From Colwellia sp. D2M02 (GTDB taxonomy: Bacteria > Pseudomonadota > Gammaproteobacteria > Enterobacterales > Alteromonadaceae), in contig NZ_JAHKPW010000058.1 of the NCBI RefSeq assembly GCF_018860755.1, forward strand, positions 1 to 64,000: a stretch of 64,000 nt of DNA, given 5' to 3'. Positions 10,324-25,018 of the stretch are shown piece after piece (position 1 is the stretch's first letter; the number at the start of each line of letters is the position of its first letter). A program made the translations under genes and the position numbers. A model generated the notes under the pieces. That model did not search any database. It worked only from the letters and a program-made list of their open reading frames with translations, and was not told the origin of the DNA.

Positions 10324-11157
10324 ATGCCCAATTCTGAACAGCCTGAAAAATTAGTACAAATCGAAAACCTTACCTTTAAACGAGGTGAACGTGTTATTTA
10401 CGATAATATTAGTTTGTCTATTCCTACTGGAAAAGTTACTGCCATTATGGGGCCTAGTGGTATCGGAAAAACGACACTGCTACGTTTGATTGGCGGGCAA
10501 ATAAAACCTGAATCAGGCAATATTTATTTTGCTGAACATAATATTCCCAAATTATCACGTAATGATCTCTACGAAGTACGTAAACGTATGAGTATGTTAT
10601 TTCAAAGTGGTGCGCTATTCACCGACATGAGTGTTTACGATAATATTGCTTTCCCTATCCGCGAACATTGTAATTTACCAGAATACTTAATTGAAAAAAT
10701 TGTTTTAATGAAGCTAGAGGCCGTAGGGTTGCGTGGTGCCAAACACTTGCAGCCAAGTGAACTTTCAGGTGGCATGGCTCGAAGGGTTGCCTTAGCGCGC
10801 GCCATTGCTTTAGATCCTGAATTAATTTTATATGATGAACCTTTTGCTGGCCAAGACCCGATCTCAATGGGGGTAATTGTACGTTTAATTCGCTCTCTTA
10901 ATGATGCGCTTGGTCTAACGTCGGTTGTTGTCTCGCACGACGTACCCGAAGTGATGAGTATCGCAGATTATATTTATATTATCGCGGATAAAAAAATTAT
11001 TGGTCATGGAACGCCAGAGCAAATTCGCCAAGCAACTTCTCCTTTAGTGCAGCAATTTGTTCGTGGTGAAGCGGACGGAGCTGTGCCGTTTCATTACGAC
11101 GCGCCAAATTATAAAGATGAACTCATTAAACCAAGTAGTGCTGGAGGTGCTAAATGA
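10324..11157 (+). CDS. mlaF: Phospholipid ABC transporter ATP-binding protein MlaF
   Basis: A 277-residue ATPase with Walker [13 protein letters not shown], signature '[15 protein letters not shown]' and Walker B '[13 protein letters not shown]'. It powers the MlaFEDB complex, which moves phospholipids between inner membrane and the periplasmic carrier MlaC to keep outer-membrane asymmetry. The C-terminal extension after residue 250 resembles the tail that in E. coli MlaF reaches around the partner subunit; that is inference. First gene of mlaFEDCB, overlapping mlaE by 4 bp. Confidence 0.95.
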
Positions 11158-11933
11158 TAACGCAAATACAGCAACTTGGTCGAAATACGCTGGGCGTTAT
11201 CAGTGGTTTAGGGCGAGCAGTAATGCTATTGGTTTCTGCGTTAATGCATGTGCCAAATTTTAAGAAAGGAACCCCCTTATTAATTCAGCAATTACACAGT
11301 GTTGGTGTAATGTCACTATTGATCATCATCGTGTCAGGGGCATTCATTGGCATGGTATTAGCGTTACAAGGTTATACCATTTTAGTGGGCTATGGTGCTG
11401 AAGCAAGTTTAGGGCCTATGGTCGCGCTTTCTTTATTACGTGAATTAGGTCCTGTGGTTGCGGCGCTTTTATTTGCGGGTAGAGCAGGCTCCGCACTTAC
11501 GGCTGAAATTGGCCTAATGAAAGCTACTGAGCAATTATCAAGTTTAGAAATGATGGCTGTTGACCCGCTGAGACGCGTTATTGCGCCACGTTTTTGGGCT
11601 GGCTTTATTGCACTACCTTTACTTGCCGCTATTTTTTCTATGGTTGGTATTTTAGGGGCGCATTTAGTTGGTGTTGACTGGTTAGGTGTTGACGGCGGTA
11701 CCTTTTGGTCGGTAATGCAAGGACAGGTCGATTTCCAAAAAGATATTCTTAATGGTGTGATTAAGAGTGTGGTTTTTGCTTTCGTGGTTACTTGGATAGC
11801 GGTATATAAAGGTTACGATTGTGAACCAACATCAGAAGGTATTAGCAGAGCAACGACCTCAACGGTTGTACAGTCATCTTTATTAGTTTTATGTTTAGAC
11901 TTTATTTTAACGGCTTTAATGTTTGCAAGGTAA
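11154..11933 (+). CDS. mlaE: Phospholipid ABC transporter permease MlaE
   Basis: A 259-residue MlaE/YrbE permease with five to six hydrophobic segments and the family signatures '[17 protein letters not shown]' and '[13 protein letters not shown]'. It forms the dimeric membrane core of the Mla transporter. The start codon overlaps the mlaF stop (ATGATAA), indicating translational coupling. A 141-bp gap then separates it from mlaD, larger than elsewhere in this operon; I see no clear terminator or promoter in that gap. Confidence 0.95.
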
Positions 11934-12074
11934 GCCATTTTAAAAATAAATAGGTTAAATAGGTTAGTTTAAGTTCAATAGTATAGCTACAGTAATGTAA
12001 CCCCCGTTACCTTATATTAGTTGGCTACTATTATTAATTTGTCATTTATAGGTAATTAAGGCGTTGGTGAAGAC

Positions 12075-12548
12075 ATGGTGTCGAAAAAAACAGAGTTATT
12101 AGTTGGAATATTTGTAGCGTTAGGGATTCTTGCCTTATTAATGTTATCACTGAAAGTGGCTAACACTGGTATTTCAGGAGGAGGGGAAACTTACCAACTT
12201 CAAGCAAAGTTTGATAATATTGGTGGTCTGAAAGTACGCTCACCAATTAAGGTTGGTGGCGTTGTAGTGGGACGAGTGAGCAAAATATCATTAGCGAATG
12301 ATGATTATACTCCCGTCGTTACATTAGATATTTATACGCAATATAATAACTTTTCTGAAGCAACTTCAGTGGCTATTTTAACTTCAGGGTTATTAGGTGA
12401 ACAATATTTAGGGATTCAGCCAGGCTTTGTTGATGAGTCTTTAGATACATTAAAACCAGGTGACTTTATTGAAGACACTAAACCTGCATTAGTTTTAGAA
12501 GAGTTAATAGGTCAATTTTTATTTAGCCAAGGAAGTGGTGATGAATAA
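12075..12548 (+). CDS. mlaD: Phospholipid transporter substrate-binding MCE protein MlaD
   Basis: A 157-residue protein with one N-terminal membrane helix (about 7-25) and one periplasmic MCE domain (about 38-115: 'YQLQAKFDNIGGLKVRSPIKVGGVVVGRV'-type core, split here by residue 50). MlaD forms a hexameric ring over MlaE through which lipids pass. Short form, as expected for MlaD rather than PqiB or YebT. Its last codons overlap the start of mlaC. Confidence 0.94.
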   Translation: MVSKKTELLVGIFVALGILALLMLSLKVANTGISGGGETYQLQAKFDNIGGLKVRSPIKVGGVVVGRVSKISLANDDYTPVVTLDIYTQYNNFSEATSVAILTSGLLGEQYLGIQPGFVDESLDTLKPGDFIEDTKPALVLEELIGQFLFSQGSGDE

Positions 12549-13308
12549 CATGGTAAGCAATACAGTGAGTAAAGCAATGACATTAAAGAGCATTCTTTGT
12601 GCAATAGCACTAACATCAGTAAGTTATAGTAGCCAAGTGTTTGCAATAGGTGAGCAAGCAGAAGAAGCAACAAGCCAAAGCGCTAGTGCAAATCTTGTTG
12701 ATCAAAAAAATCCTTACAAAATGATTGAAGAAGTAGCAAGCCTTACCTTTAAACGCTTTGCTGATGAACAAGAAAATATTAGAAAAAATCCTAATATTCT
12801 TAAAGATATTGTTCGTGAAGAGTTGATGCCTTATGTGAATTATCAATATTCAGCGTTTAAAGTAGTAGGACAGCACTTAAGAAATACCACTAAAGAAGAG
12901 CGCAGTGAATTTGTCCCTGTTTTTAAGGAGTACCTAATTACTTCTTACGCGCAAGTTTTTACACTCTATGATAATCAGCAAGTTATTTTTGAACGTGAGA
13001 GAGACTTTAAAGATAATAAAATTATTGCTGTTAATACGCGTGTTATTATGCCTGGGCGTGATGATATTGATGTTTCTTTTAAAGTGCGAAGAAACACTAA
13101 AGACGATACATGGCAAGCATTTGATATGATTGCAGAAGGTGTAAGCTTACTCGACTCTAAACAAGCCGAGCTTGGCAGTATTATTAGGCAAAAAGGGTTA
13201 GCCTACGTTACTGAGTTATTAAAAAAGAAAAGTGAACGTAACATTGTCTTCAAAGACGGCGCAGATAAAGACGCTGTGGTTGATAGCTTTAATGATGAAA
13301 AAGGTTAG
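12541..13308 (+). CDS. mlaC: Periplasmic phospholipid-binding protein MlaC
   Basis: A toluene-tolerance Ttg2D/MlaC family protein, the soluble shuttle between the outer-membrane MlaA complex and MlaFEDB. A signal peptide ends near 'SSQVFA'. The mature domain shows 'YVNYQYSAFKVVG' and 'YAQVFTLYDNQQV', and a lysine-rich tail. I use the ATG at 12541, six bases after AAGGAAG; it overlaps the mlaD stop by 8 bp. The open frame extends two codons further upstream and another ATG lies at 12550, so the exact N-terminus is uncertain by a few residues. Confidence 0.92.
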   Translation: MNNMVSNTVSKAMTLKSILCAIALTSVSYSSQVFAIGEQAEEATSQSASANLVDQKNPYKMIEEVASLTFKRFADEQENIRKNPNILKDIVREELMPYVNYQYSAFKVVGQHLRNTTKEERSEFVPVFKEYLITSYAQVFTLYDNQQVIFERERDFKDNKIIAVNTRVIMPGRDDIDVSFKVRRNTKDDTWQAFDMIAEGVSLLDSKQAELGSIIRQKGLAYVTELLKKKSERNIVFKDGADKDAVVDSFNDEKG

Positions 13309-13311
13309 CAT

Positions 13312-13617
13312 GTGAGTAGTGTTAATTTAACAATTGCAGATAAAGTATTATCGATTAATGGTGAATTAAGTCGCCATAGCCTTGCTCTTATTAACAAGAA
13401 CAATTATTCTAACTGCTTTTCGTTTGATCATGTTACGGTAGACTTAAGCGCCGTCACTAAAGTTGATACTGCAGGTCTTGCTTGGTTATTTTATTTGCTT
13501 GAACAAAGCATCGCACACTCTTGTGAAATAACCTTTATGCATTTACCCGAAAAATTATACAAACTAATAGCGTTAAGCGGCGTTAACGGTCTATTGCCGG
13601 TAACCGTAAGCGAATAA
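13312..13617 (+). CDS. mlaB: STAS-domain protein MlaB
   Basis: A 101-residue single STAS domain. The conserved 'VDLSAVTKVDTAGLAWLFYLLE' region (first 20 residues define it) carries the Asp-Thr/Ser pair typical of the fold. MlaB binds MlaF and is needed for transporter assembly and activity. The start is a GTG at 13312, three bases after the mlaC stop. Short and weakly conserved, but position and STAS signature make the call firm. Confidence 0.9.
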   Translation: MSSVNLTIADKVLSINGELSRHSLALINKNNYSNCFSFDHVTVDLSAVTKVDTAGLAWLFYLLEQSIAHSCEITFMHLPEKLYKLIALSGVNGLLPVTVSE

Positions 13618-13644
13618 CACACAGAATAATGTAGGAGAATTCGC

Positions 13645-13911
13645 TTGGAAATAAGTGAAGTAGAAGTACTAATTAAGCAACGTGTAACTGAAGCACTCGA
13701 ACTTGATGAAATACAAGTAAAATTTGATGGCTCGCAATGTCGTATTATCGCTGTAAGTGATATGTTTGATGACTTAAGTCGAGTTAAGCGTCAACAAGCG
13801 GTATTAAAGCCTTTAGCTGAGTTAATTAAAGACGGTAGCGTGCATGCTGTTTCAGTGAAAACATACAACAAAGCGCAGTGGCAACGAGATAAAATGTTTA
13901 ATAGCTTATAA
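13645..13911 (+). CDS. ibaG: BolA-family protein IbaG
   Basis: An 88-residue BolA-like protein with the late signature 'AVSVKTYNKAQW'. IbaG/YrbA partners with monothiol glutaredoxins in Fe-S handling and is tied to acid stress in E. coli. The start is a TTG at 13645, eight bases after TAGGAG. The gene lies between mlaB and murA, the conserved E. coli position. The HxGD-type BolA core is present only loosely, which is normal for this branch. Confidence 0.88.
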   Translation: MEISEVEVLIKQRVTEALELDEIQVKFDGSQCRIIAVSDMFDDLSRVKRQQAVLKPLAELIKDGSVHAVSVKTYNKAQWQRDKMFNSL

Positions 13912-13962
13912 GCTGTTGAGTTTACTTCGTTGATTTAATTTTAGTTTAAAAGAAAGTAGTGA

Positions 13963-15234
<1,272 letters not shown>

Positions 15235-15358: not shown

Positions 15359-17032
15359 CTAGCGAGGGTTGTAGCGCCCTTGACTTAATATGTGGTTGGG
15401 ATCAAGAGCGTCTTTGATAGCATTAACGGTTTGCCAAAAAGGTGTCTCTTTATTTAGTAACCATTGCTGTTGATCTATATTTAAACGATAAGGCACAAAG
15501 CCTTTTTTTAAGCCGTTTTCTACTAAGTCTTTTAAGCAGTTATGTGCATCGCTAACCGCTTGAGGGTTGCTTAAGTCAAAGACTATTGGAATGGTACTAT
15601 CAACACAATCATGTCGTAAATTAGTAAATGTTATAAAAGGCTCGATATTATACTTAGGGCAAGTATCACGAATAAAATCAACAAATTCACGCATTTTGCC
15701 TGCTTTCATTGTAATTAAAGGAGCGTACCAAAGCAGTCCGCAACCATCTTTGCTAGGCGATAATGCCGCTTTATCAAATGAGGATGCTTGTGGGTGTCGC
15801 CAATAAGCAAGTTTTAAGGCGACTTTATTTGGCTTACCCAGCATGATCTCTTTCCCCTTGTTGAAGGAGTTTAGTTGCTCACTAATAACCTTTAAAGGGG
15901 CGACTTTTTCAATTAACCACTGAGGTAATGCCGATATTACTTTATTGGCACAGGTAATCAGCAAACTATTTGAATAAACACGTTTACAAGGAAGGTTTTT
16001 GAAGAGGGCGTTTATCTCACATTTTACGGCACTAACCACCGCTTTACTGCCGTAAATAGTGCCGACAATAGTCCAGCACGGTGCTTGTAATTCTTTGCCT
16101 AGTCGGAGAATATCTTTTTGATGCATAACACTATGTGTATCTTCGCCATTTGGGTTTGTGGCAAACATCGACAAAATACGTCGCTTATCCATTAAATTAA
16201 TTGAGCCGACAATACCTTCATAATCTTGCAGTACTTGCCTTATCAGAGGAACAACATCTTCAAGTTGATTGTCATCGTTTAGCTGGATGAAAAAAGAAGT
16301 GAAATCGGGTTTTTTCTTCGCTAAACGAAGTGTCATTTGACTAACTACGCCTAAGTTTGACTGAGTAAATAAACCATCTAAATATGGGCCTACACCCCAT
16401 TTAAATGTTTTATCAACAAACTGCTCTTGAGATTGATCAAGTTCATTGACCGCAGATTGAAAAGGGCTGCCATTTGCCCAATAGCCTTGAATACTGGTGA
16501 CCGCACTAAAATGGTCAGTATAAGGGGTAATACCGTAACCTCGTTCTAATGCATTTGACAGTATTGAACAGTCTGGCCCAGCTCCTGTTACTGGTACCAT
16601 GTAACTATCGCCAAGCGAAATTAAGTAGTCACTGAGCTGTTGTTGGGTAACGCCGGGTTCAAGTGTAATTAAACCAAGTTCAGCATCAAAATCTATAATT
16701 CTAGTTAGCTGACTGAGATCAAGTATTATTATATTTTCGCCTTTCCCGGCAGGTTGAGATGTGCCGTAACCCCAGTTATTTCCAGTGCTCACTGGGTATA
16801 GAGAGAAACGTAAAGCCTCATCTTTAGCGTAATGGTTTGCTAAATCAAGTAGCACTTTAATTTCAGAGGATTTTTTGATGATAATAACCGCCAACAGTTG
16901 TCGTTTTTTTTCTGAGAAGTTATCCAGTCCTTCTGTTCCTTGAAGGTACTGTGAAATAACGGTGCTATCGGCAGACAATGTTGAATCTATAGATAGTTTT
17001 TCTTGGATTAGCGCTAATAATGCAGTGTTCAT
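15359..17032 (-). CDS. FAD-linked oxidase of the p-cresol methylhydroxylase/vanillyl-alcohol oxidase type
   Basis: A 557-residue flavoprotein. The PCMH-type FAD domain lies in about residues 60-260: 'NWGYGTSQP', 'ILDLSQLTRI' and 'LEPGVTQQQLSDYL', with 'LERGYGITPYTDHF', which resembles the same region of p-cresol methylhydroxylase and vanillyl-alcohol oxidase. The substrate domain follows, and the end 'LDPNHILSQGRYNPR' matches the family's C-terminal signature. Known members oxidise para-substituted phenols or other alcohols; the substrate here is unknown. It is last in the four-gene minus-strand operon, 22 bp after the acyltransferase, so it may act on an acylated amine. No cytochrome subunit is adjacent. 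Function beyond 'flavin oxidase' is inference. Confidence 0.75.
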   Translation of the reverse strand: MNTALLALIQEKLSIDSTLSADSTVISQYLQGTEGLDNFSEKKRQLLAVIIIKKSSEIKVLLDLANHYAKDEALRFSLYPVSTGNNWGYGTSQPAGKGENIIILDLSQLTRIIDFDAELGLITLEPGVTQQQLSDYLISLGDSYMVPVTGAGPDCSILSNALERGYGITPYTDHFSAVTSIQGYWANGSPFQSAVNELDQSQEQFVDKTFKWGVGPYLDGLFTQSNLGVVSQMTLRLAKKKPDFTSFFIQLNDDNQLEDVVPLIRQVLQDYEGIVGSINLMDKRRILSMFATNPNGEDTHSVMHQKDILRLGKELQAPCWTIVGTIYGSKAVVSAVKCEINALFKNLPCKRVYSNSLLITCANKVISALPQWLIEKVAPLKVISEQLNSFNKGKEIMLGKPNKVALKLAYWRHPQASSFDKAALSPSKDGCGLLWYAPLITMKAGKMREFVDFIRDTCPKYNIEPFITFTNLRHDCVDSTIPIVFDLSNPQAVSDAHNCLKDLVENGLKKGFVPYRLNIDQQQWLLNKETPFWQTVNAIKDALDPNHILSQGRYNPR

Positions 17033-17054
17033 TTGCTATGATCTTCTTATTAGA

Positions 17055-17966
17055 TTATTTAAGTAGCTCTAACTGCTTAAGCTGTTTTTTTATATCTTTT
17101 TCTATGGTTGTGTATAGGCTTTTAAAGCCAGGAGACAAGTTTTTCATAAATATCTCTGGATTAATATAATAAGGGGCGCGTAAGCCATGATAATCAACAG
17201 GAGGGCCTAGCTGTTCAAAAGCAATACCAATAAAGCGCATGCTTCTTGCTAATCTTGGCTCCATCATCACGTAAACGTGCCTTATCCCTGTGTTCATCCC
17301 CATAGTAGCGGCAGCCATGTATAAACCAATAGCGATAAAAGGGAAGCAACGTAATTCAGTTTCAGAATAGCTTACTTCGCTGATAACCCCGGTTGCGGAG
17401 CCTTTATAGTGATCGGCTTTACGGCGTCTGAAATCTGACTTAACCGCCAGCCGTGATATTTCAGCGATTTCATTACGGTTAAAACGCTCAGGGCTTAGGT
17501 TAGTATTGGTTATAGAGTGCAAACAATATTTTTCAATAGGTAGCAATTGACCCGGCTTTTGTGAGGTGACTAAACGAACGCAGCTGGTAAAAGTGTCCGT
17601 TGGCTTGTGCTTAATTAATGAGAAAATTGACTGTTCGTCGAACTCATCTTTTTCTTGACCGTCTGGCTTAATATCTTCAAATGCAAGTTCTTCGCAGTAA
17701 ACGTTGTGTCTAATTTTAAATGCTTCTTCTTTTAACGTTTGATTAACGGCTATGTGAGGTTGTAAAAATTGAGTAAAATGATCTGAAATGCTATGCGCTT
17801 CCCTGCTTGCTTTTATCGAAACAATTTTTTTGGTGATATCACCAATAATTGGGGTGTTAAGTAAACGTTTATTCCAGTTCATTAGTCTTCCATATTGTTT
17901 AAGTAAATAATGACAAACGATTATTTGACCTAAGGTCTGCTCGAATATTGCACTATGTGCGTTCAC
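17055..17966 (-). CDS. LuxI-fold N-acyltransferase, PEP-CTERM/exosortase-associated type
   Basis: A 303-residue GNAT-like acyltransferase related to acyl-homoserine-lactone synthases. The motif 'EEAFKIRHNVYCEELAFE' (about 81-97) matches the LuxI-type N-terminal 'R..V..E' region, and 'EISRLAVKSDFRRRK' the later catalytic strand. It fits the family usually called PEP-CTERM/exosortase system-associated acyltransferase (TIGR03694 as I recall it). Such enzymes are expected to move an acyl group to an amine. The start is a GTG at 17966; a later ATG at 17882 is possible. A TATAATTATA palindrome at 17983-17992 could serve as an internal -10. The upstream gap to the decarboxylase is 90 bp. It should not be taken for an AHL synthase: no LuxR gene is near. 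Confidence 0.78.
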   Translation of the reverse strand: MNAHSAIFEQTLGQIIVCHYLLKQYGRLMNWNKRLLNTPIIGDITKKIVSIKASREAHSISDHFTQFLQPHIAVNQTLKEEAFKIRHNVYCEELAFEDIKPDGQEKDEFDEQSIFSLIKHKPTDTFTSCVRLVTSQKPGQLLPIEKYCLHSITNTNLSPERFNRNEIAEISRLAVKSDFRRRKADHYKGSATGVISEVSYSETELRCFPFIAIGLYMAAATMGMNTGIRHVYVMMEPRLARSMRFIGIAFEQLGPPVDYHGLRAPYYINPEIFMKNLSPGFKSLYTTIEKDIKKQLKQLELLK

Positions 17967-18056
17967 ATTAAAAGCGTATTGGTATAATTATAGTCCGATA
18001 CTTTGAATAACCCTCAATTAATATATTTTTAACTCCTTGAATGACTGAAGTGCAGC

Positions 18057-19316
18057 TTATAGCAGAACCTCTTTAAGCTCAGGTTGGCTTAGAAAGTCTT
18101 TTGGGCTTGCTGATGCGCCATAGGCTCCCGATTGAAATACCACCACATAATCATCAATTGTTGCTGTGGGTAAGGTGACCTTATCTGCCAAAATATCTAA
18201 CGGTGTACATAATGGGCCGACAATCGAAACTTGTTCTCGTTCATCTCCTGCAAGCTTGTTACCTATAGCAACAGGGTAATTCTTACGAATAACCTGACCA
18301 AAATTACCTGAATTAGCTAAATGATGATGTAAGCCGCCATCACAAACTAAATAGCTTGTGCCACGAGATACTTTTTTATCAATAACTTTCGTGACATAAA
18401 TACCAGCATCACCTACTAGATAACGACCTAATTCGAGAATCACCTCAACATCGGCAAATTTCGATTTAAATGATTTGAGCACCGTTGTAAGTTGATTGCC
18501 AAGGTACTCTATATCTAAAGGTTTTTCATTCTTAAAGTAAGGAATACCTAAGCCGCCCCCCATATTAATATAATCAATTTTTGTCGGGTTATATTGTTGT
18601 GCTAATGTGATGAGTTTCGTTGCTAAGGATAATGTTTGTTGTTGCGTTGATAATATCGCGTCAGCGTTAAGGTTTTGTGAACCTGAATAAATATGGAAGC
18701 CGCGTAAGTTGATATGCTCAAAAGGTAATTGAGGAATTAATTCAGGTAGTGCTTCTTCATCAATACCAAAAGGTTTAGCACCACCAGACATTTTCATACC
18801 AGAGTGCTTTAATTCAAACTCAGGGTTAACCCTAATTGCTATATTTGCTCTTAGTGAAAGTTGTTGCGCAGTATTTGCTACTCGACTTATTTCCGTGGGT
18901 GATTCTACGTGTAGGGTAACTCCTGCGATAATGGCTGCGCTAATGTCTGCGATTGTTTTTCCTGGGCCAGCAAAGCTAATGTTGTTTGCAGGCATACCGG
19001 TTTGTAGTGCTAGTAACATCTCCTTTTTAGATGCAACATCAAAGCCACTTACTTGTTGAGCAAGTAAATTAACAATCGGTTGATAAGGATTGGCTTTTAT
19101 CGCGTAATGCAAGGTTATATCGCTAGGTAGAGCGGCTTTTAACGAGGCTACTTTTTCGGTAATGATTTGTTTGTCATAAGCATAATAAGGAGTACTACCG
19201 AGTAATAATTCAATATTGGTCAAACTTAAGCCACCAAGTAGTAGTTTATTATTATCATGCTTGAACTGTTTAGGAATGGCTCTGGCTTCCGTTAGTTTTT
19301 CGCTATTTTTTATCAT
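18057..19316 (-). CDS. PLP-dependent decarboxylase, exosortase A system-associated type
   Basis: A 419-residue fold-type III (alanine-racemase-like) decarboxylase of the ornithine/diaminopimelate group. The PLP lysine is Lys74 in 'HYAIKANPYQP'; the phosphate-binding glycines are in 'GGGLGIPYF'; the cross-dimer cysteine region is 'GPLCTPLDIL'; the C-terminal 'QSGAYGASASPKDFLSQP' completes the pocket. It resembles the exosortase-A-associated family (TIGR03099 as I recall). The natural substrate is unknown; a basic amino acid or diaminopimelate is the family expectation. It sits 35 bp after the acyl ligase and before the acyltransferase, so a product amine could be the acyl acceptor. Confidence 0.82.
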   Translation of the reverse strand: MIKNSEKLTEARAIPKQFKHDNNKLLLGGLSLTNIELLLGSTPYYAYDKQIITEKVASLKAALPSDITLHYAIKANPYQPIVNLLAQQVSGFDVASKKEMLLALQTGMPANNISFAGPGKTIADISAAIIAGVTLHVESPTEISRVANTAQQLSLRANIAIRVNPEFELKHSGMKMSGGAKPFGIDEEALPELIPQLPFEHINLRGFHIYSGSQNLNADAILSTQQQTLSLATKLITLAQQYNPTKIDYINMGGGLGIPYFKNEKPLDIEYLGNQLTTVLKSFKSKFADVEVILELGRYLVGDAGIYVTKVIDKKVSRGTSYLVCDGGLHHHLANSGNFGQVIRKNYPVAIGNKLAGDEREQVSIVGPLCTPLDILADKVTLPTATIDDYVVVFQSGAYGASASPKDFLSQPELKEVLL

Positions 19317-19351
19317 TGTTTATCTCTATAACGCTCTGTGATGTTATTAAC

Positions 19352-20995
19352 TTACTGAGAAGTATTGTCATACTGTTGTTTAAGTAAATTACGGTCAAGC
19401 TTGCCATTAGCATTTTTAGGTAAACTATCGAGTATTATGAACTTCTTGGGCACCATGTAATTTGCTAATGATAAACTACAATGCTGCTGTAATGTGCGCT
19501 CAATTACTTTATTTTCGTCAAGTGGACTATTATCAAGGAGCGATAGTACAGCAATAATAGCTTGGCCTAATTCTTTGTCTTGAATGCCTAAAACAACGAC
19601 CTCGTTAATATTAGCTTGTTGTAAAATAACTTCTTCTACTTCACTTGGACTAACACGATAGCCAGAGGTTTTTATCATTTCATCTTGGCGGGCAATAAAA
19701 TATAAAAAACCATCAGCATCACGTTTAACGAAGTCACCGGAATAAACCGCTAGTGGTGATTTTTCGCAATTAATGGCAAGTGAGGGAGTCGCTTTAAAGC
19801 GCTGTTTAGTTGCCTCAATATTTTGCCAATAACCTAAACTAACTAACGGGCCAATATGCACTAATTCACCAACTTCATTAACTTCACATTCACTACCATC
19901 AGGCCTTAATACTAACACTTCGGCATTAGGGATTGCTTTTCCCATAGAGCCAGTTTTATTATCAATTTCATCGGGTGATAAATAAGTTGAGCGAAAAGCC
20001 TCTGTTAAACCATACATTAAATAAGGTTTAGCTTGAGGTAGGTATGATCGTAGCTGTTTAATAACCACTACGGGTAATACCCCACCAGAGTTTGTGAAAT
20101 ATCTTAATGATTGGGTTGAGTATTCATGCCACTTAGTCTTTATAAGTTGTGCCCATAACGGTGGCACGCCTGCAAGACCTGTAATTTTATACTTCGCGAC
20201 AGCTTTAAGTACGTCATTAGCAAACAAGTAATCTAACAAAACACAGCGCCCGCCCACTAGAAACATGGTAGTTAATTGGTTTAAACCATAGTCAAAACTT
20301 AGCGGTAATACAGCTAACAGTCTGTCTTCTTCGGTGTTTTCTAAGTATTTACTTACGGATTGAGCGCCCAAAATCAGATTTTTATGGCTAAGCATAATAC
20401 CTTTAGGTTTACCGGTGCTACCTGAGCTATATAAAATAGCGGCTAATTGCTCTGATGGGGCTAATATAGTTGAGTTATTTGAGCTTAACCCCTGTGTGGT
20501 TAGTTCGTGCGTATCAGTGGTATTCTGTTGGGCTAAATTACGCCAGCAATGAATTTTAACTCCATCAATGCTATCAACCTTTTTTATATTATTATCGTTT
20601 AAGTCGGTAATAATAATGTGTTTAATACTTTTTAGCGCAATGAGTATCTCTTGTAATGCTGTGAAGCGTGCAATATTTGTAACCAGCACTGATATTTGAC
20701 AGTCGTTAATAATGTGCTGAACTTGTGGGGCTTTTAACACTGGATTAATAGGCACAAAGACCGCATTAGCTTGACTACAAGCAAACATCGCTTCGACATT
20801 ATAAAAATTTTTGGCTAAATAAATACCGATACGATCACCTGCTTTTACATTCAGCGACTTATAAACATTAGCCACGCTGCTTATATGAGAGTTTAATTCT
20901 TGATAAGTAAGCTGCTGATCTTTTTGTTGTAATGCGATGCTATTAGGTGTTTTTTTTGCAGAATTACTGATGAGTTGGTGTACGAGAGTAGTCAT
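19352..20995 (-). CDS. AMP-forming acyl-CoA/acyl ligase, exosortase A system-associated type
   Basis: A 547-residue ANL-superfamily adenylating enzyme. The P-loop is 'ILYSSGSTGKPKGIMLSH', the A5-type motif 'YLMYGLTEAFRSTYL', the hinge Asp is in 'VYSGDFVKRDADGFLYF', and the catalytic lysine is in 'LPKNANGKLDRN'. It would activate a carboxylic acid as acyl-AMP and pass it to CoA or a carrier. It is first in the operon, so it likely supplies the acyl donor for the acyltransferase. No acyl-carrier-protein gene lies in the operon. The upstream gap of 157 bp to the kinase gene probably contains the operon promoter. Confidence 0.82.
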   Translation of the reverse strand: MTTLVHQLISNSAKKTPNSIALQQKDQQLTYQELNSHISSVANVYKSLNVKAGDRIGIYLAKNFYNVEAMFACSQANAVFVPINPVLKAPQVQHIINDCQISVLVTNIARFTALQEILIALKSIKHIIITDLNDNNIKKVDSIDGVKIHCWRNLAQQNTTDTHELTTQGLSSNNSTILAPSEQLAAILYSSGSTGKPKGIMLSHKNLILGAQSVSKYLENTEEDRLLAVLPLSFDYGLNQLTTMFLVGGRCVLLDYLFANDVLKAVAKYKITGLAGVPPLWAQLIKTKWHEYSTQSLRYFTNSGGVLPVVVIKQLRSYLPQAKPYLMYGLTEAFRSTYLSPDEIDNKTGSMGKAIPNAEVLVLRPDGSECEVNEVGELVHIGPLVSLGYWQNIEATKQRFKATPSLAINCEKSPLAVYSGDFVKRDADGFLYFIARQDEMIKTSGYRVSPSEVEEVILQQANINEVVVLGIQDKELGQAIIAVLSLLDNSPLDENKVIERTLQQHCSLSLANYMVPKKFIILDSLPKNANGKLDRNLLKQQYDNTSQ

Positions 20996-21152: not shown

Positions 21153-23255
21153 CTAGGCGTCTGTAATTGTGATTGGTAGTGTTATTTTAAAAAGGGTGGT
21201 GCCAGCGTCAGACTCTTCACAGCTAATTGTTCCTTGCATTAGTTGAACGACTAAATTATAAACCACACTTAAGCCTAAACCGATATTATGACCACCCATT
21301 TGAGTAGTATAAAATGGATCGAATACTTTACCCATTAAATACTTATCAATGCCCTTGCCATTATCTTGATAGGTTATCTCTAAATGCTCAGTGTGCGCTT
21401 TCGGAGCGTTTTTATGCTTTACGGCAATATCAATAATAAGATTTTTTCCCTCTTGTTGGCCATGTTCTCGTGAATTATTGATTAAATGCTCTAACACTTT
21501 CTGCAATGCGGTAGGGTAGCCTTCTATGCTTATATTATCGCCATGTATATTTACTTCATCTTGATGAGTAAGTAGGTTAGTTGCTATAGCCTCACCCTGA
21601 CTTTGTAATTGCGTTAATATATTAAACTTCTCTTTTTTGTCTCCAGCGAGTTGGGTTGATAGCAGCTTAAAGTGGCTGACTAACTCAGCAGCAGTGTTCA
21701 TATTATTCAATGCTAAGTTGCAGCTTTGCTCTAATGTGGTAATAAACTCTGTGAACGTGTTTTTAGTGATCTGGTTAGCTTCAACCTGTAGAGAAAGGTT
21801 TTTAGTCATATATGCTATATGGGAAATTGCCGTGACGCTATTCCCTAGCGGCGTGTTTATTTTATGTGCAACACCTGAAACAAGAATGGTTAATGCGGAC
21901 ATTTTTTCAGACTCAATTAACTTTGCTTGCGTAGTGCGTAGATTTTCTAACGTGATTGATAGGTTTGTGTTTATATTTTGTATTTTTTTACGTCGGCTAT
22001 GTAATAACCCTAGAAAAACGCTCAAAATAATAACGATTATACTGCCGAAAATAATAATAAGAGTGCTACGCTGCTCAACATTATTTATTTTTAACTGTTT
22101 AATCTCGTTGGCTTTATTTAAAGATAAAATATCTAAGTTTTTGGTTACAGTACTTAGCTTTGTGATGTAGCTAGTTAACTCTGCATCATTAATATTCAGC
22201 TGTATTTTGGCGAGTATATTTTGGTAGTTGTGCAAGGCATGAAAAGCTTCTTTAAATTGTTTACGTTTCTCATAGCGTTGTGTTTGTAATTTATAAGCCT
22301 CTGCGAGGGTTGTGTATTTTTTTTCTTTTTCGGCGATAAGAATAATATCTAATAATAAGTCTTCACTTGCTTTGTCTTGCTCGGTTTCATTATATAATTT
22401 CGCTAGCTCTAGTTGGCTGGCGAGTAGCCCTTTAATAAAATGGTTCTCTTTTCTTATTTCTATCGCTTTAAGTAAGCTCAGCTGAGCCTTTTCAGGCTCA
22501 TTTTTTACTTTGTAAATAAGCCCTAAATTATGGTACGAGTAGGAAGAGTGGAAAGTTAACTTGTTTTTAAGTCTTATTGCTAAGGCTTGTTGATGTAATT
22601 CTGCTGCTTTCTCATATTGTTCTAAGCCAAAATAAGCTTCCCCTAAATTGTTATAGGCCTGGCCTAAATATATAGGATCATTGCGTTTCTTATTAAAGTT
22701 GAGTGAATCAGTTAAATAAGGGATAGCTTCTTTATAAAAGCCCAACTTAACAGAAATATAGCCAAGCGCATTTTCGGTGTTGGCGCGCTCGTATGTATAG
22801 TTTTGATGGGGTTTAATAAAGTCATAAGCTTTTGCGTAATGCTTAATGGCTTGATTACCTTGCTCGGTGTGCCAGTAACTGGTTCCTTGAATATAGTGCA
22901 GTTTCCATTGAGCTAATGGCGATGGATTATTTTTAACTACGTTTGCTATTTCTTCTATAACAGCAAAAGCCTCGGAATATTTATTAGTATATAAATAAGA
23001 GTAAACTTTGATTTCTAATAAATTAAGAGTTTGATGAACGGTGTTTTTTTGTTCAAGCAAATAGTTAGCCTGAGTTAATGCTTTGCTAGGGTCTGATATT
23101 AATATTTTCTTTAAGGCTAAATACTCATCTGTATAAAGAGGCGCTTCATTGCTCAAAGCGGTTTGCTGTACACTTGCTAATGAATACAATAAAAATATAC
23201 AAACGTACGTTATGTGTCGTGACGTATTACAACGATAATCTTTTAAAAAATACAT
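21153..23255 (-). CDS. TPR-containing membrane sensor histidine kinase
   Basis: A 700-residue protein. Order: an N-terminal signal or anchor segment, tetratricopeptide repeats (about 80-390, e.g. 'AQAYNNLGEAYFGLEQYEKA'), a membrane helix (about 395-416), a coiled coil, a phospho-acceptor region with His near 462 ('GVAHKINTPLGN') and a HATPase domain ('LINNSREHG', 'DNGKGID', 'GGHNIGLGLSVVYNL'). The TPR part would be periplasmic. It is 11 bp downstream of the patatin gene on the same strand, so they are probably cotranscribed. No response regulator is nearby and no receiver domain is fused; its partner is encoded elsewhere or unknown. Confidence 0.88.
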   Translation of the reverse strand: MYFLKDYRCNTSRHITYVCIFLLYSLASVQQTALSNEAPLYTDEYLALKKILISDPSKALTQANYLLEQKNTVHQTLNLLEIKVYSYLYTNKYSEAFAVIEEIANVVKNNPSPLAQWKLHYIQGTSYWHTEQGNQAIKHYAKAYDFIKPHQNYTYERANTENALGYISVKLGFYKEAIPYLTDSLNFNKKRNDPIYLGQAYNNLGEAYFGLEQYEKAAELHQQALAIRLKNKLTFHSSYSYHNLGLIYKVKNEPEKAQLSLLKAIEIRKENHFIKGLLASQLELAKLYNETEQDKASEDLLLDIILIAEKEKKYTTLAEAYKLQTQRYEKRKQFKEAFHALHNYQNILAKIQLNINDAELTSYITKLSTVTKNLDILSLNKANEIKQLKINNVEQRSTLIIIFGSIIVIILSVFLGLLHSRRKKIQNINTNLSITLENLRTTQAKLIESEKMSALTILVSGVAHKINTPLGNSVTAISHIAYMTKNLSLQVEANQITKNTFTEFITTLEQSCNLALNNMNTAAELVSHFKLLSTQLAGDKKEKFNILTQLQSQGEAIATNLLTHQDEVNIHGDNISIEGYPTALQKVLEHLINNSREHGQQEGKNLIIDIAVKHKNAPKAHTEHLEITYQDNGKGIDKYLMGKVFDPFYTTQMGGHNIGLGLSVVYNLVVQLMQGTISCEESDAGTTLFKITLPITITDA

Positions 23256-23266
23256 AGGCAGTAAGT

Positions 23267-24085
23267 TTAATGTGCGATTTTAATGGGGATAATTTCCATA
23301 GCGGTTTGAAATCCTATTTTATAAAGCTCATGTTTTTGTTCTTTGGTCATTTTAAAGTCAACGGCAGAGTGTTCACCAATATTAATGACAATGGTGTTAT
23401 GCCAAAAACTTTCATTAATATACTCACGAGAAATTGTTGTCATAAAGGTGCGAATTAATAGTGTTACGTAGTTATAAATGGGAAAAAAACCATTAACCTT
23501 TAAATGATCGTATTCGTGCTCGCCACGTAAACGAAAGCATAAAACGGGGGTACCTTTGTTATCCCAGTCTCTATGCAAAGCATCTTCAGATAAAATACTC
23601 CCATCGACCATAATCCGTTTACCAAAAGGTTTAAAACTAAACACGAGGGGAATTGACATGGAAAAGCGTACTGCAGTTGATACTTTCATGTCAGGAGTTA
23701 AATCGGCATTAAAAATAACGGGTTTACCGTTAGTGACATCCGTTGCCACTATGTGTAGTTTTTTTTCTAACTGAGAAAAGGTTTTCCCTTCTAAGTGACT
23801 ATCAACCCAACGCTCAAAGGCATCGCCAGAGCTTAAACCGCCGTGACGTATTAGCTTGAGTAGTGAGAACTCTCTAAATTGCTGATAATTAGTTTTTAAG
23901 GCAATGTTTTTAATTTGATTAATTGGCATGCCAGCGGCATAAAAACTGGAGATAATACTGCCCCCTGATACGCCAACTAAATCCTTAAAAGGAACATCAA
24001 GTAACTCTAGTGCTTTTAATACCCCTAAATGAGCAGGCAGGCGTGTACCACCGCCAGCAAAAATAGGTACTATCGCTTTAGTCAT
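23267..24085 (-). CDS. Patatin-like phospholipase
   Basis: A 272-residue patatin-domain protein with the catalytic dyad visible: oxyanion loop 'FAGGGTRLPAHLGVL', nucleophile serine in 'GVSGGSI', and the aspartate in 'VDGSI'. Members hydrolyse acyl esters of lipids. There is no signal peptide, so it is likely cytoplasmic or peripherally bound to the inner membrane. The ATG follows GGAAG. It is upstream of the sensor kinase in a probable two-gene unit, an unusual partnership hinting at lipid-related signalling (inference). Divergent from the secreted protease at 24245. Confidence 0.88.
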   Translation of the reverse strand: MTKAIVPIFAGGGTRLPAHLGVLKALELLDVPFKDLVGVSGGSIISSFYAAGMPINQIKNIALKTNYQQFREFSLLKLIRHGGLSSGDAFERWVDSHLEGKTFSQLEKKLHIVATDVTNGKPVIFNADLTPDMKVSTAVRFSMSIPLVFSFKPFGKRIMVDGSILSEDALHRDWDNKGTPVLCFRLRGEHEYDHLKVNGFFPIYNYVTLLIRTFMTTISREYINESFWHNTIVINIGEHSAVDFKMTKEQKHELYKIGFQTAMEIIPIKIAH

Positions 24086-24244: not shown

Positions 24245-25018
24245 ATGAAACTCTTTAATCGTATTGTTGTTTTTTTAAGTTTATTTATTGTGAGTTATAG
24301 CAGCCAGGCAAATGATAACTTTGTTAATGTTGTCGCGAAAAATAAGCTTTCTGTTGTAGGTATTGGTATACATACACCAACCAGTCGCCCACAGAATATT
24401 TTAAGGGGGACGGGCTTTGTTATAGGCGATGGTACTTATGTGGTCACTAATGCTCATGTACTGCCTGATATGCTAGATGAGAGTTTGCGACAAGAAATGG
24501 CAGTATTTATTGGCTCTGGTAAAGAAGCTAACGTTAGAAAAGCTGAAATTGTAATTACTTCCAGCCTTTATGATCTTGCGGTGTTAAAGCTATCAGGGAG
24601 TCCATTACCCGCAATGACACTCGCTGCTGACGAGTTTTATCCTGATGGTAGCTATATTGCTTTTACAGGGTTTCCCATTGGTGCAGTATTAGGCTTATAT
24701 CCGGTAACGCATCGCGGTATTATTGCCAGTTTAACTCCCACAGTGATTCCTGCACCATCAGCAGGGCAGTTAAGTTTGAAAATGCTCAAGAGTATGCGTA
24801 ACCCTTATTTAATTTACCAGTTAGACGCTACTGCTTACCCCGGCAATAGTGGTAGTGCGATGTACGATATGAAAACAGGTCAAGTAGTTGCCATTATAAA
24901 CAAAGTGTTTGTACAAGAGACTAAAGAAGCGGTGATCAGTAAACCTAGTGGCATTACTTATGCTATACCTGTGAAGTATTTACGAAAAATTTTACGTGAG
25001 CAAAAAATTAATCTTTAA
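24245..25018 (+). CDS. Secreted trypsin-like serine protease
   Basis: A 257-residue protein with an N-terminal signal peptide (cleavage near SSQA/ND) and a DegP-like S1C protease domain. The triad is readable: His71 ('VTNAHVLP'), Asp110 ('SLYDLAVLKL') and Ser202 ('AYPGNSGSAMYD'). There is no PDZ domain, so it is a short periplasmic or secreted protease rather than a full DegP/DegQ. The gene stands alone between divergent and convergent neighbours. Substrate unknown. Confidence 0.87.
   Translation: MKLFNRIVVFLSLFIVSYSSQANDNFVNVVAKNKLSVVGIGIHTPTSRPQNILRGTGFVIGDGTYVVTNAHVLPDMLDESLRQEMAVFIGSGKEANVRKAEIVITSSLYDLAVLKLSGSPLPAMTLAADEFYPDGSYIAFTGFPIGAVLGLYPVTHRGIIASLTPTVIPAPSAGQLSLKMLKSMRNPYLIYQLDATAYPGNSGSAMYDMKTGQVVAIINKVFVQETKEAVISKPSGITYAIPVKYLRKILREQKINL

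Follow-up and report, generated by a model that had tools for sequence, protein, structure and literature searches.

A four-gene operon of Colwellia sp. D2M02 proposed to join two accessory modules of the XrtA/PEP-CTERM surface system

A 64,000-nucleotide stretch of Colwellia sp. D2M02 (contig NZ_JAHKPW010000058.1, positions 1 to 64,000; the whole stretch is referred to here as the window) carries an operon of four co-directional minus-strand genes, separated by intergenic gaps of 35, 90, and 22 nt. This operon is best regarded as a piece detached from the rest of an XrtA system, whose genes occupy three or more loci of the genome. The genes encode, in order, LIG (19352..20995), a stand-alone adenylation enzyme of the ligase_PEP_1 family (TIGR03098); DEC (18057..19316), a fold-III pyridoxal phosphate-dependent decarboxylase of the dCO2ase_PEP1 family (TIGR03099); ACT (17055..17966), a LuxI/FeeM-fold N-acyltransferase of the exosort_acyl family (TIGR03694) and putative N-acyl amino acid synthase; and FLA (15359..17032), a flavoprotein of the vanillyl alcohol oxidase (VAO)/p-cresol methylhydroxylase (PCMH), or 4-phenol oxidoreductase, type. 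We propose that this operon joins two accessory modules of the XrtA/PEP-CTERM surface system, detached from the XrtA/exopolysaccharide (EPS) locus: module A, comprising LIG, DEC, and a dedicated carrier protein encoded elsewhere, and module B, comprising ACT and FLA. With the substrates proposed below, we give this reading a probability of about 0.5.

The operon and the exosortase system of its genome

LIG, DEC, and ACT score over the cut-offs of their family models, with 729.8 (cut-off 592.35), 597.8 (cut-off 478.45), and 283.7 bits (cut-off 111.95), respectively, and FLA matches the flavin adenine dinucleotide-binding domain PF01565 over cut-off and has a 4-phenol oxidoreductase fold. An original prediction, made from the sequence of the window, had named these three families and a PCMH-type flavoprotein completing the one-strand operon, and both assignments hold. 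The trio families and a link between such synthases and exosortases are already known. Comparison of gene order, including the flavoprotein gene, was made over the best 80 of 554 FLA relatives in named genomes, which include Colwellia, Alteromonas, Paraglaciecola, Arsukibacterium, Rheinheimera, Shewanella, and Marinobacter. ACT is present in 69 of these 80 loci, adjacent to FLA in 48, two or three genes away in 19, and six genes away in 2, and the adjacent pairs are mostly on the same strand (47 of 48) and separated by less than 100 nt (41 of 48). The operon is real, and, with ACT and FLA adjacent in so many loci, it is not a product of chance.

The genome (4.01 Mb in 92 contigs, completeness 100) has the operon on contig C21. 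Genome-wide searches placed no exosortase, PEP-CTERM protein, or dedicated carrier on C21, in agreement with the local absence described in the original prediction. The sole exosortase match in the genome lies on contig C5 and is XrtA (TIGR03109; 338.9 bits, cut-off 208). It stands within an EPS locus together with an XrtA-type amidotransferase, a TIGR03013 glycosyltransferase, a deacetylase, a FemAB protein, an ATPase, a TIGR03016 protein, and PrsR, all of which are over their family cut-offs. The PEP-CTERM model finds 13 places genome-wide, 12 of them over cut-off and none on C21. Contig C19 encodes one protein that ends in a PEP-CTERM-like sequence, PrsT (803 bits), an 85-residue carrier protein, hydrolase 1 (332 bits, cut-off 168), and a hydrolase-2-like protein that falls slightly under its cut-off (193.3 bits against 202.75). 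Three PrsT matches in the genome are over cut-off, for a model that is also exceeded in 1 of 14 control genomes. The operon is therefore outside the XrtA locus, with XrtA on C5, the operon on C21, and the carrier, PrsT, and hydrolase genes on C19, and, with these parts present, the stand-alone, exosortase-free pathway that had first been suggested is not supported for this genome.

Among known systems, the operon resembles the XrtA/PEP-CTERM accessory genes (ligase_PEP_1, dCO2ase_PEP1, exosort_acyl, hydrolases 1 and 2, and PrsT) in that all three family models are exceeded and the remaining parts are found elsewhere in the genome. It differs in that the parts are spread here over three contigs, in that FLA matches no NCBIfam family over cut-off, and in that module A also occurs without a detected exosortase (see below). 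We note separately that the carrier/PrsT locus contains a 760-aa open frame (L188:7902-10184) which, by eye from its sequence, resembles a UDP-sugar epimerase fused to a UDP-sugar dehydrogenase.

Distribution of the two modules

To describe the distribution of these genes, DEC (E 1e-100), FLA (E 1e-20), exosortase (E 1e-10), the carrier (E 1e-6), and ACT (counted at its curated cut-off) were sought in 247 genomes of the order; that the same 247 genomes underlie each search is judged from the identical sample size and matching labels, most non-matching genomes being unlisted. DEC is present in 36 genomes (33 over the curated cut-off, with G064, G082, and G098 just under), exosortase in 66, FLA in 19, and ACT in 48, of which the 46 over cut-off are counted below (G103 and G171 are left out). 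The carrier is also found in 36 genomes, and these are identical to the DEC genomes, with the other 211 having neither; weak carrier matches without DEC occur in G090 and G214 (1e-4 and 9e-4). ACT over cut-off occurs only in exosortase genomes (46/46), and 17 of the 19 FLA genomes have both ACT and an exosortase. DEC has no detected exosortase alongside it in 20 of its 36 genomes, all 20 of which are also without ACT over cut-off and without FLA. Conversely, 31 of the 46 ACT genomes have no DEC; ACT and FLA together occur without DEC in eight genomes, and all four in nine. Because the distribution splits them in this way, LIG, DEC, and the carrier on one side and ACT and FLA on the other are separable units. 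The idea of a stand-alone pathway, which is not supported for this genome, suits module A in the 20 genomes where it is found without exosortase, ACT, or FLA.

Eighteen genomes labelled f7 have DEC and none has an exosortase at E 1e-10. Seven of these were mapped around the carrier: in five (labelled g17) a PrsK-like and then a PrsR-like gene follow the carrier (both over NCBIfam cut-offs in L199, the one tested), and in two (labelled g76) XrtA-type FemAB and deacetylase genes (confirmed for L202) and EPS genes lie near it. The mapped f7 genomes therefore retain regulators or polysaccharide genes of the XrtA system beside the carrier.

Of the 80 FLA loci, 25 have LIG and 28 have DEC, and 41 of the 69 loci with both ACT and FLA have neither, as far as the 8-kb flanks reach (some contigs end sooner), so that genes farther out would be missed. 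ACT-FLA pairs without LIG and DEC are found also in some Colwellia loci (e.g., L116 and L119), and the complete LIG-DEC-ACT-FLA succession occurs without interruption in 14 of 80 loci, all within L104-L123. PrsT-type genes accompany ACT and FLA in 41 of 69 loci, and PEP-CTERM-like genes, recognized with a home-made pattern, lie within three genes of FLA in 38 of 80. In four Paraglaciecola/Alteromonas-type loci (L139, L141, L164, and L167), ACT is separated from FLA by one or two genes for proteins with PEP-CTERM-like ends, and the one such protein tested (L139) has an exosortase-dependent surface protein domain over cut-off.

Predicted chemistry of the two modules

When the LIG core is used as query, the best solved proteins are chains 3wv4 and 3wvn, both of which we take to be VinN; with the whole of LIG as query, large peptide synthetases rank first (the top one being linear gramicidin synthase), and 3wvn is the best-scoring short enzyme. 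LIG residues D235, S303, and R335 align with D246, S315, and R347 of the 3wv4 chain, which are VinN D230, S299, and R331 plus 16, residues whose roles in the substrate triad are given in PMC7756342. Among 48 LIG proteins (47 distinct; sequences shorter than 400 aa left out) these residues are kept in 48, 47, and 48, respectively, and the triad is absent from two 2-succinylbenzoate (OSB)-CoA ligase sequences and a 4-coumarate CoA ligase in the same alignment output. Because the VinN triad is kept in LIG and is absent from the CoA ligases, the predicted role of LIG is to charge a carrier protein with an amino diacid, for example aspartate, through the side-chain carboxylate of that acid, rather than to activate a fatty acid.

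The nearest solved protein to DEC is BtrK, the L-glutamyl-[BtrI acyl-carrier protein] decarboxylase (E 6.4e-68). The motif GPLCTPLD is present in all 26 DEC proteins examined, relative to 36 genomes with DEC, and its BtrK counterpart is GPLCTPED; a DEC paralogue of the same genome, on contig C13, has GPVCETGD at this position. A second relative in the genome, on contig C1 (L016; G000:C1:68018-69115), carries GPLCTSMD, and a motif of this type alone is therefore no proof of substrate. Formation of a free diamine, as by lysine, ornithine, or diaminopimelate (DAP) decarboxylases, is disfavoured by the BtrK-type motif; the comparison is with the DAP decarboxylase residue that contacts the distal amine. 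DEC is instead predicted to act on a carrier-bound amino acid. For VinO, decarboxylation requires prior thioester formation, as reported in PMC11284099.

Since DEC is nearest to BtrK and co-occurs with the carrier, the best reading of module A is conversion of an amino diacid to an omega-aminoacyl-carrier, the likeliest case being aspartate to beta-alanyl and the alternative glutamate to gamma-aminobutyryl. LIG would adenylate the side-chain carboxylate of the amino diacid, most likely aspartate, and load it onto the dedicated carrier encoded on C19; DEC would then remove the alpha-carboxylate to give beta-alanyl-S-carrier, as do VinN/VinL/VinO and BtrK, and as proposed for BolO/BolC/BolN. In common with these systems of vicenistatin, butirosin, and bolagladin biosynthesis, respectively, module A has the VinN triad, a BtrK-type motif, and a dedicated free-standing carrier. 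It is unlike them in that the carrier is on another contig and in that no polyketide synthase or nonribosomal peptide synthetase gene was seen in the stretches read around LIG/DEC and around the carrier. The carrier is adjoined by proteins with the PF13480 domain of the Gcn5-related N-acetyltransferase (GNAT) type in all five cases tested (this genome, L134, L211, L212, and L213). As a lead, this suggests that an acyl or aminoacyl group is transferred; among the seven f7 maps and L208, none was noted to have a GNAT neighbour.

ACT also matches the FeeM model PF21926 (29.6 bits, cut-off 27), and is the only match of its kind in the genome at E 1e-3. Its start is probably the ATG at 17882 and not the GTG at 17966, because the resulting 275 aa fits the 274 aa of Colwellia relatives such as L105. 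A structure model (predicted local distance difference test [pLDDT] 84.7) matches N-acylhomoserine lactone (AHL) synthases best (Z 16.9, rmsd 3.0, 197 residues aligned), with a general GNAT acetyltransferase (5jph) at Z 15.7 and FeeM (2g0b) at Z 15.1 (rmsd 3.2, 175 aligned); because these Z scores are close, the fold cannot choose among the three. We rejected ACT as an AHL synthase, although AHL synthases outrank FeeM by fold, since it misses the family cut-offs for LuxI-type models (PF00765, 23.8 bits against 24; TraI models, 23.6 and 17.2 against 292 and 250). FeeM-type synthases are reported to yield N-acyl-tyrosine (PMC4897644). The predicted product of ACT is the fatty amide of an amino acid, for example tyrosine. 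N-acyl amino acid synthases have been linked to PEP-CTERM/exosortase systems (Craig et al. 2011, as cited in PMC7293339, PMC4897644, and PMC11072679), and ACT resembles these in family, fold, and exosortase linkage, the difference being that its frequent partner here is a 4-phenol oxidoreductase. The physiological role of the exosortase-linked N-acyl amino acids is termed unclear in PMC4897644.

In profile searches, the best match of FLA is the 4-cresol dehydrogenase flavoprotein (4.5e-107), and in sequence it is closest to PCMH, eugenol oxidase (EUGO), and VAO. With the structure model (pLDDT 89.0; predicted template modelling score 0.89), fold matches 1 to 47 are all 4-phenol oxidoreductases (E 1.1e-35 to 1.9e-27, with 19 to 22% identity in the fold alignments), and the next is a D-lactate dehydrogenase (2.8e-20). 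The phenolate cluster Y89, Y515, and R516, which aligns with Tyr95 and Tyr473-Arg474 of PCMH, is kept in 44 of 44 proteins of one alignment (A4, the window protein plus 43 others chosen from the 79 long FLA sequences of the 80 loci, leaving out L163, whose FLA is in pieces) and in 18 of 18 of another (A1, from the 19 FLA proteins of the 247-genome sample, leaving out the partial match G240); the two overlap in the window protein and at least three others. In EUGO, the corresponding residues Y91, Y471, and R472 bind the phenolate, as part of a cluster that family members have in common (PMC11148156). Because this Tyr/Tyr-Arg site is retained, a phenolic substrate is expected, and FLA, judged by alignment and model, probably oxidises a para-substituted phenol (a para-hydroxyphenyl compound). 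This suggests a phenolic product such as N-acyl-tyrosine, and FLA would oxidise the para-hydroxyphenyl side chain of the ACT product, for example by turning N-acyl-tyrosine into N-acyl-dehydro-tyrosine, into N-acyl-beta-hydroxy-tyrosine, or into a form both oxidised and decarboxylated. The original idea of a small-molecule pathway with a flavin-dependent oxidation as its last step is plausible.

Modified N-acyl dehydrotyrosines are described from Thalassotalea, Massilia, and Stieleria, with a nitroreductase and a ThiF-like protein as candidate partners (PMC12479983). As in those stieleriacine-, thalassotalic acid-, and tyrazolone-type sets, an N-acyl amino acid synthase stands here beside a flavoenzyme thought to oxidise an acylated tyrosine, but theirs is of the nitroreductase family with a ThiF-like protein, and ours is of the VAO/PCMH type. 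No ThiF-like or nitroreductase gene is a direct neighbour of ACT in the operon, where it is flanked by DEC and FLA. By analogy, ACT-FLA would be a different enzyme pair for tailoring similar to that of the N-acyl dehydrotyrosine pathways. FLA shares with VAO, EUGO, and PCMH the fold and the phenolate-binding residues, and differs from them in its low identity, in having Gly-Ala at flavin N5, and in that no cytochrome partner was found. It also differs from these three in its genomic context, which is mostly synthase/PEP-CTERM.

Alternatives, gene neighbourhood, and significance

Several observations weigh against the proposal that the operon joins two XrtA accessory modules with these substrates. 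First, what is observed is family membership, gene order, co-occurrence, conservation of active sites, and the folds of the models; we infer the substrates, the order of reactions, the action of FLA on the ACT product, and the service of both modules to the envelope/EPS system. Second, in the ACT fold search FeeM ranks about 1 to 2 Z units below the AHL synthases and 5jph. Third, the published rule for the residue pair at flavin N5 gives oxidases an acidic residue plus Leu and dehydrogenases a small residue plus Pro/Ile (PMC7617285). FLA has, by alignment, Gly150-Ala151 (in 44/44 proteins of A4; in A1 Gly with Ala in 11 and with Ser in 7), that is, neither the acidic-Leu pair of oxidases nor the Pro/Ile of dehydrogenases, with only the small residue present, and this pair points to no particular electron acceptor. 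The part of FLA in which the covalent FAD residue (His or Tyr) would lie fell outside the aligned region. A cytochrome partner was considered, and no CxxCH protein was found within three genes of FLA across the 80 loci. Fourth, being the best 80 of 554, the FLA loci are those of close relatives, and the Fisher values for co-occurrence, which are tiny, ignore relatedness. Fifth, the two under-cut-off ACT matches (G103 and G171) are in genomes without detected exosortase, and 2 of the 19 FLA genomes have neither exosortase nor ACT. Sixth, 10 of the 80 FLA loci have no ACT, PEP-CTERM-like, or PrsT gene in the stretch covered: L124 (a 3.3-kb fragment), L126, L127, L128, L130, L166, L171, L173, L174, and L178, of which seven of the nine other than L124 are Shewanella records, and in L128 (L128:1190-9656) an FLA 60% identical over the match is surrounded by genes whose sequences read like those of a CoA-transferase, an enoyl-CoA hydratase, a thiolase, and a dehydrogenase. 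Finally, the region before LIG offers no sigma-54-type site that convinces. The closest candidate, at 21189-21204 on the operon strand, is inside a kinase gene and has two mismatches in its TTGC part, and the pattern occurs in the window near chance frequency (48 matches relative to 36 expected, with 7 of 100 shuffles reaching 48). The original prediction had held that an exosortase and EPS locus elsewhere, co-regulated with the operon, would speak against an independent pathway; that locus exists, and co-regulation through sigma-54/PrsR is unsupported.

A more far-reaching version, which we regard as tentative and as clearly less probable than the reading just weighed, gives each module its own role. 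Module A would supply beta-alanyl (or related omega-aminoacyl) groups on the carrier. A GNAT/FemAB-like protein, whose gene adjoins that of the carrier in several genomes, would pass these groups on to an acceptor, either EPS or a lipid, and protein sorting would have no part in this. ACT-FLA would act in parallel as an envelope-lipid module that has so far gone unrecognised. Its 4-phenol oxidoreductase, from a family known from the breakdown of phenolics, would tailor N-acyl-tyrosine-type lipids in place of the nitroreductase of N-acyl dehydrotyrosine pathways.

A single linear pathway is rather unlikely. In it, the beta-alanyl-carrier made by LIG and DEC would receive a fatty acyl group on its amine from ACT, and FLA would introduce a double bond into the resulting N-acyl-beta-alanyl unit. 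The gene order in the window and in the 14 uninterrupted loci would suit it, as would the precedent of the bolagladin starter, for which VinN-, carrier-, and BtrK-like proteins (BolO/BolC/BolN) followed by N-acylation and a flavin dehydrogenase are proposed (PMC7756342). We rate it lower because the modules separate, with ACT lacking DEC in 31 of 46 genomes, all 20 exosortase-less DEC genomes lacking ACT, and 41 of 69 ACT-FLA loci having neither LIG nor DEC within the 8-kb flanks, and because FLA, whose phenolate site is intact, belongs to the 4-phenol oxidoreductases and not to the acyl-CoA dehydrogenases. It is more doubtful still that FLA is an unrelated phenol oxidase of aromatic catabolism that is merely located in the operon. 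The 10 partnerless loci and the 60%-identical FLA in a catabolic-looking operon are in its favour, but ACT adjacency recurs in several genera, ACT-FLA pairs persist without LIG and DEC (L116 and L119), and PEP-CTERM-like genes lie between ACT and FLA in Paraglaciecola and Alteromonas-type loci. The scheme first suggested, a stand-alone signal or lipid made by LIG activating a fatty or other acid, DEC making a free amine, ACT joining the two as an N-acyl amine, and FLA oxidising the product, fits the enzyme classes coarsely and is improbable, since LIG and DEC match VinN and BtrK (LIG carrying an amino acid-binding Asp and the VinN triad, DEC being closest to a carrier-dependent enzyme) and co-occur with the dedicated carrier in exactly the same genomes, which favours a carrier-bound route, and since the genome has XrtA and the modules separate.

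Two further observations concern the partnerless FLA loci. The operon of L128 resembles one of ring or side-chain catabolism, as read from its sequences. In two Shewanella loci (L166:6814-7776 and L171:6856-7782), a gene for a 308- to 320-aa protein with a similar opening sequence precedes the FLA relative; this protein may be an alternative partner of FLA, and for L166, the one tested, neither Pfam nor NCBIfam gave a match.

In the window, the operon is preceded by a gene for a sensor histidine kinase (21153..23255, minus strand) with tetratricopeptide repeat (TPR) and HATPase_c domains, by PAT (23267..24085, minus strand), a patatin-like phospholipase whose patatin-type matches are below cut-off, and by a divergent gene (24245..25018, plus strand) for an HtrA-like trypsin-family protease, whose HtrA/DegP-family matches are also below cut-off. 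Relatives of PAT and of the protease are recurrent neighbours of the ACT-FLA module, being present in 39 and 58, respectively, of the 69 FLA loci with ACT. PAT and LIG directly adjoin in 11 of the 17 loci that have both (L104, L110-L114, L117, L118, and L120-L122) and are seven genes apart in the remaining six; because of the 11 related loci, the kinase gene between PAT and LIG is apparently a lineage insertion and no conserved part of the operon. On the opposite strand beside the operon (10324-15234) are, as read from translations, Mla-type lipid transport genes, a BolA-like gene, and murA, and L117 and L120 show the same order of gene sizes as this region.

NCBIfam labels the exosortase-A-associated ligase and decarboxylase, ligase_PEP_1 and dCO2ase_PEP1, as hypothetical equivalogs, and the VinN/BtrK-type reading offers one testable reaction for each, with the exact co-occurrence of one carrier protein supplying their likely missing partner. 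No report of the flavoprotein partner, or of an aspartyl-carrier (VinN/BtrK) reading of LIG and DEC, was found in searches of one open-access library, which is weak evidence given that most subscription journals are outside it. The ACT-FLA pair suggests a possible fate for exosortase-linked N-acyl amino acids, and offers a second type of flavoenzyme for modified N-acyl tyrosines. Because exosortase-less genomes with module A keep PrsK/PrsR or EPS genes, they suggest that its chemistry serves the polysaccharide or the envelope, and not sorting itself.

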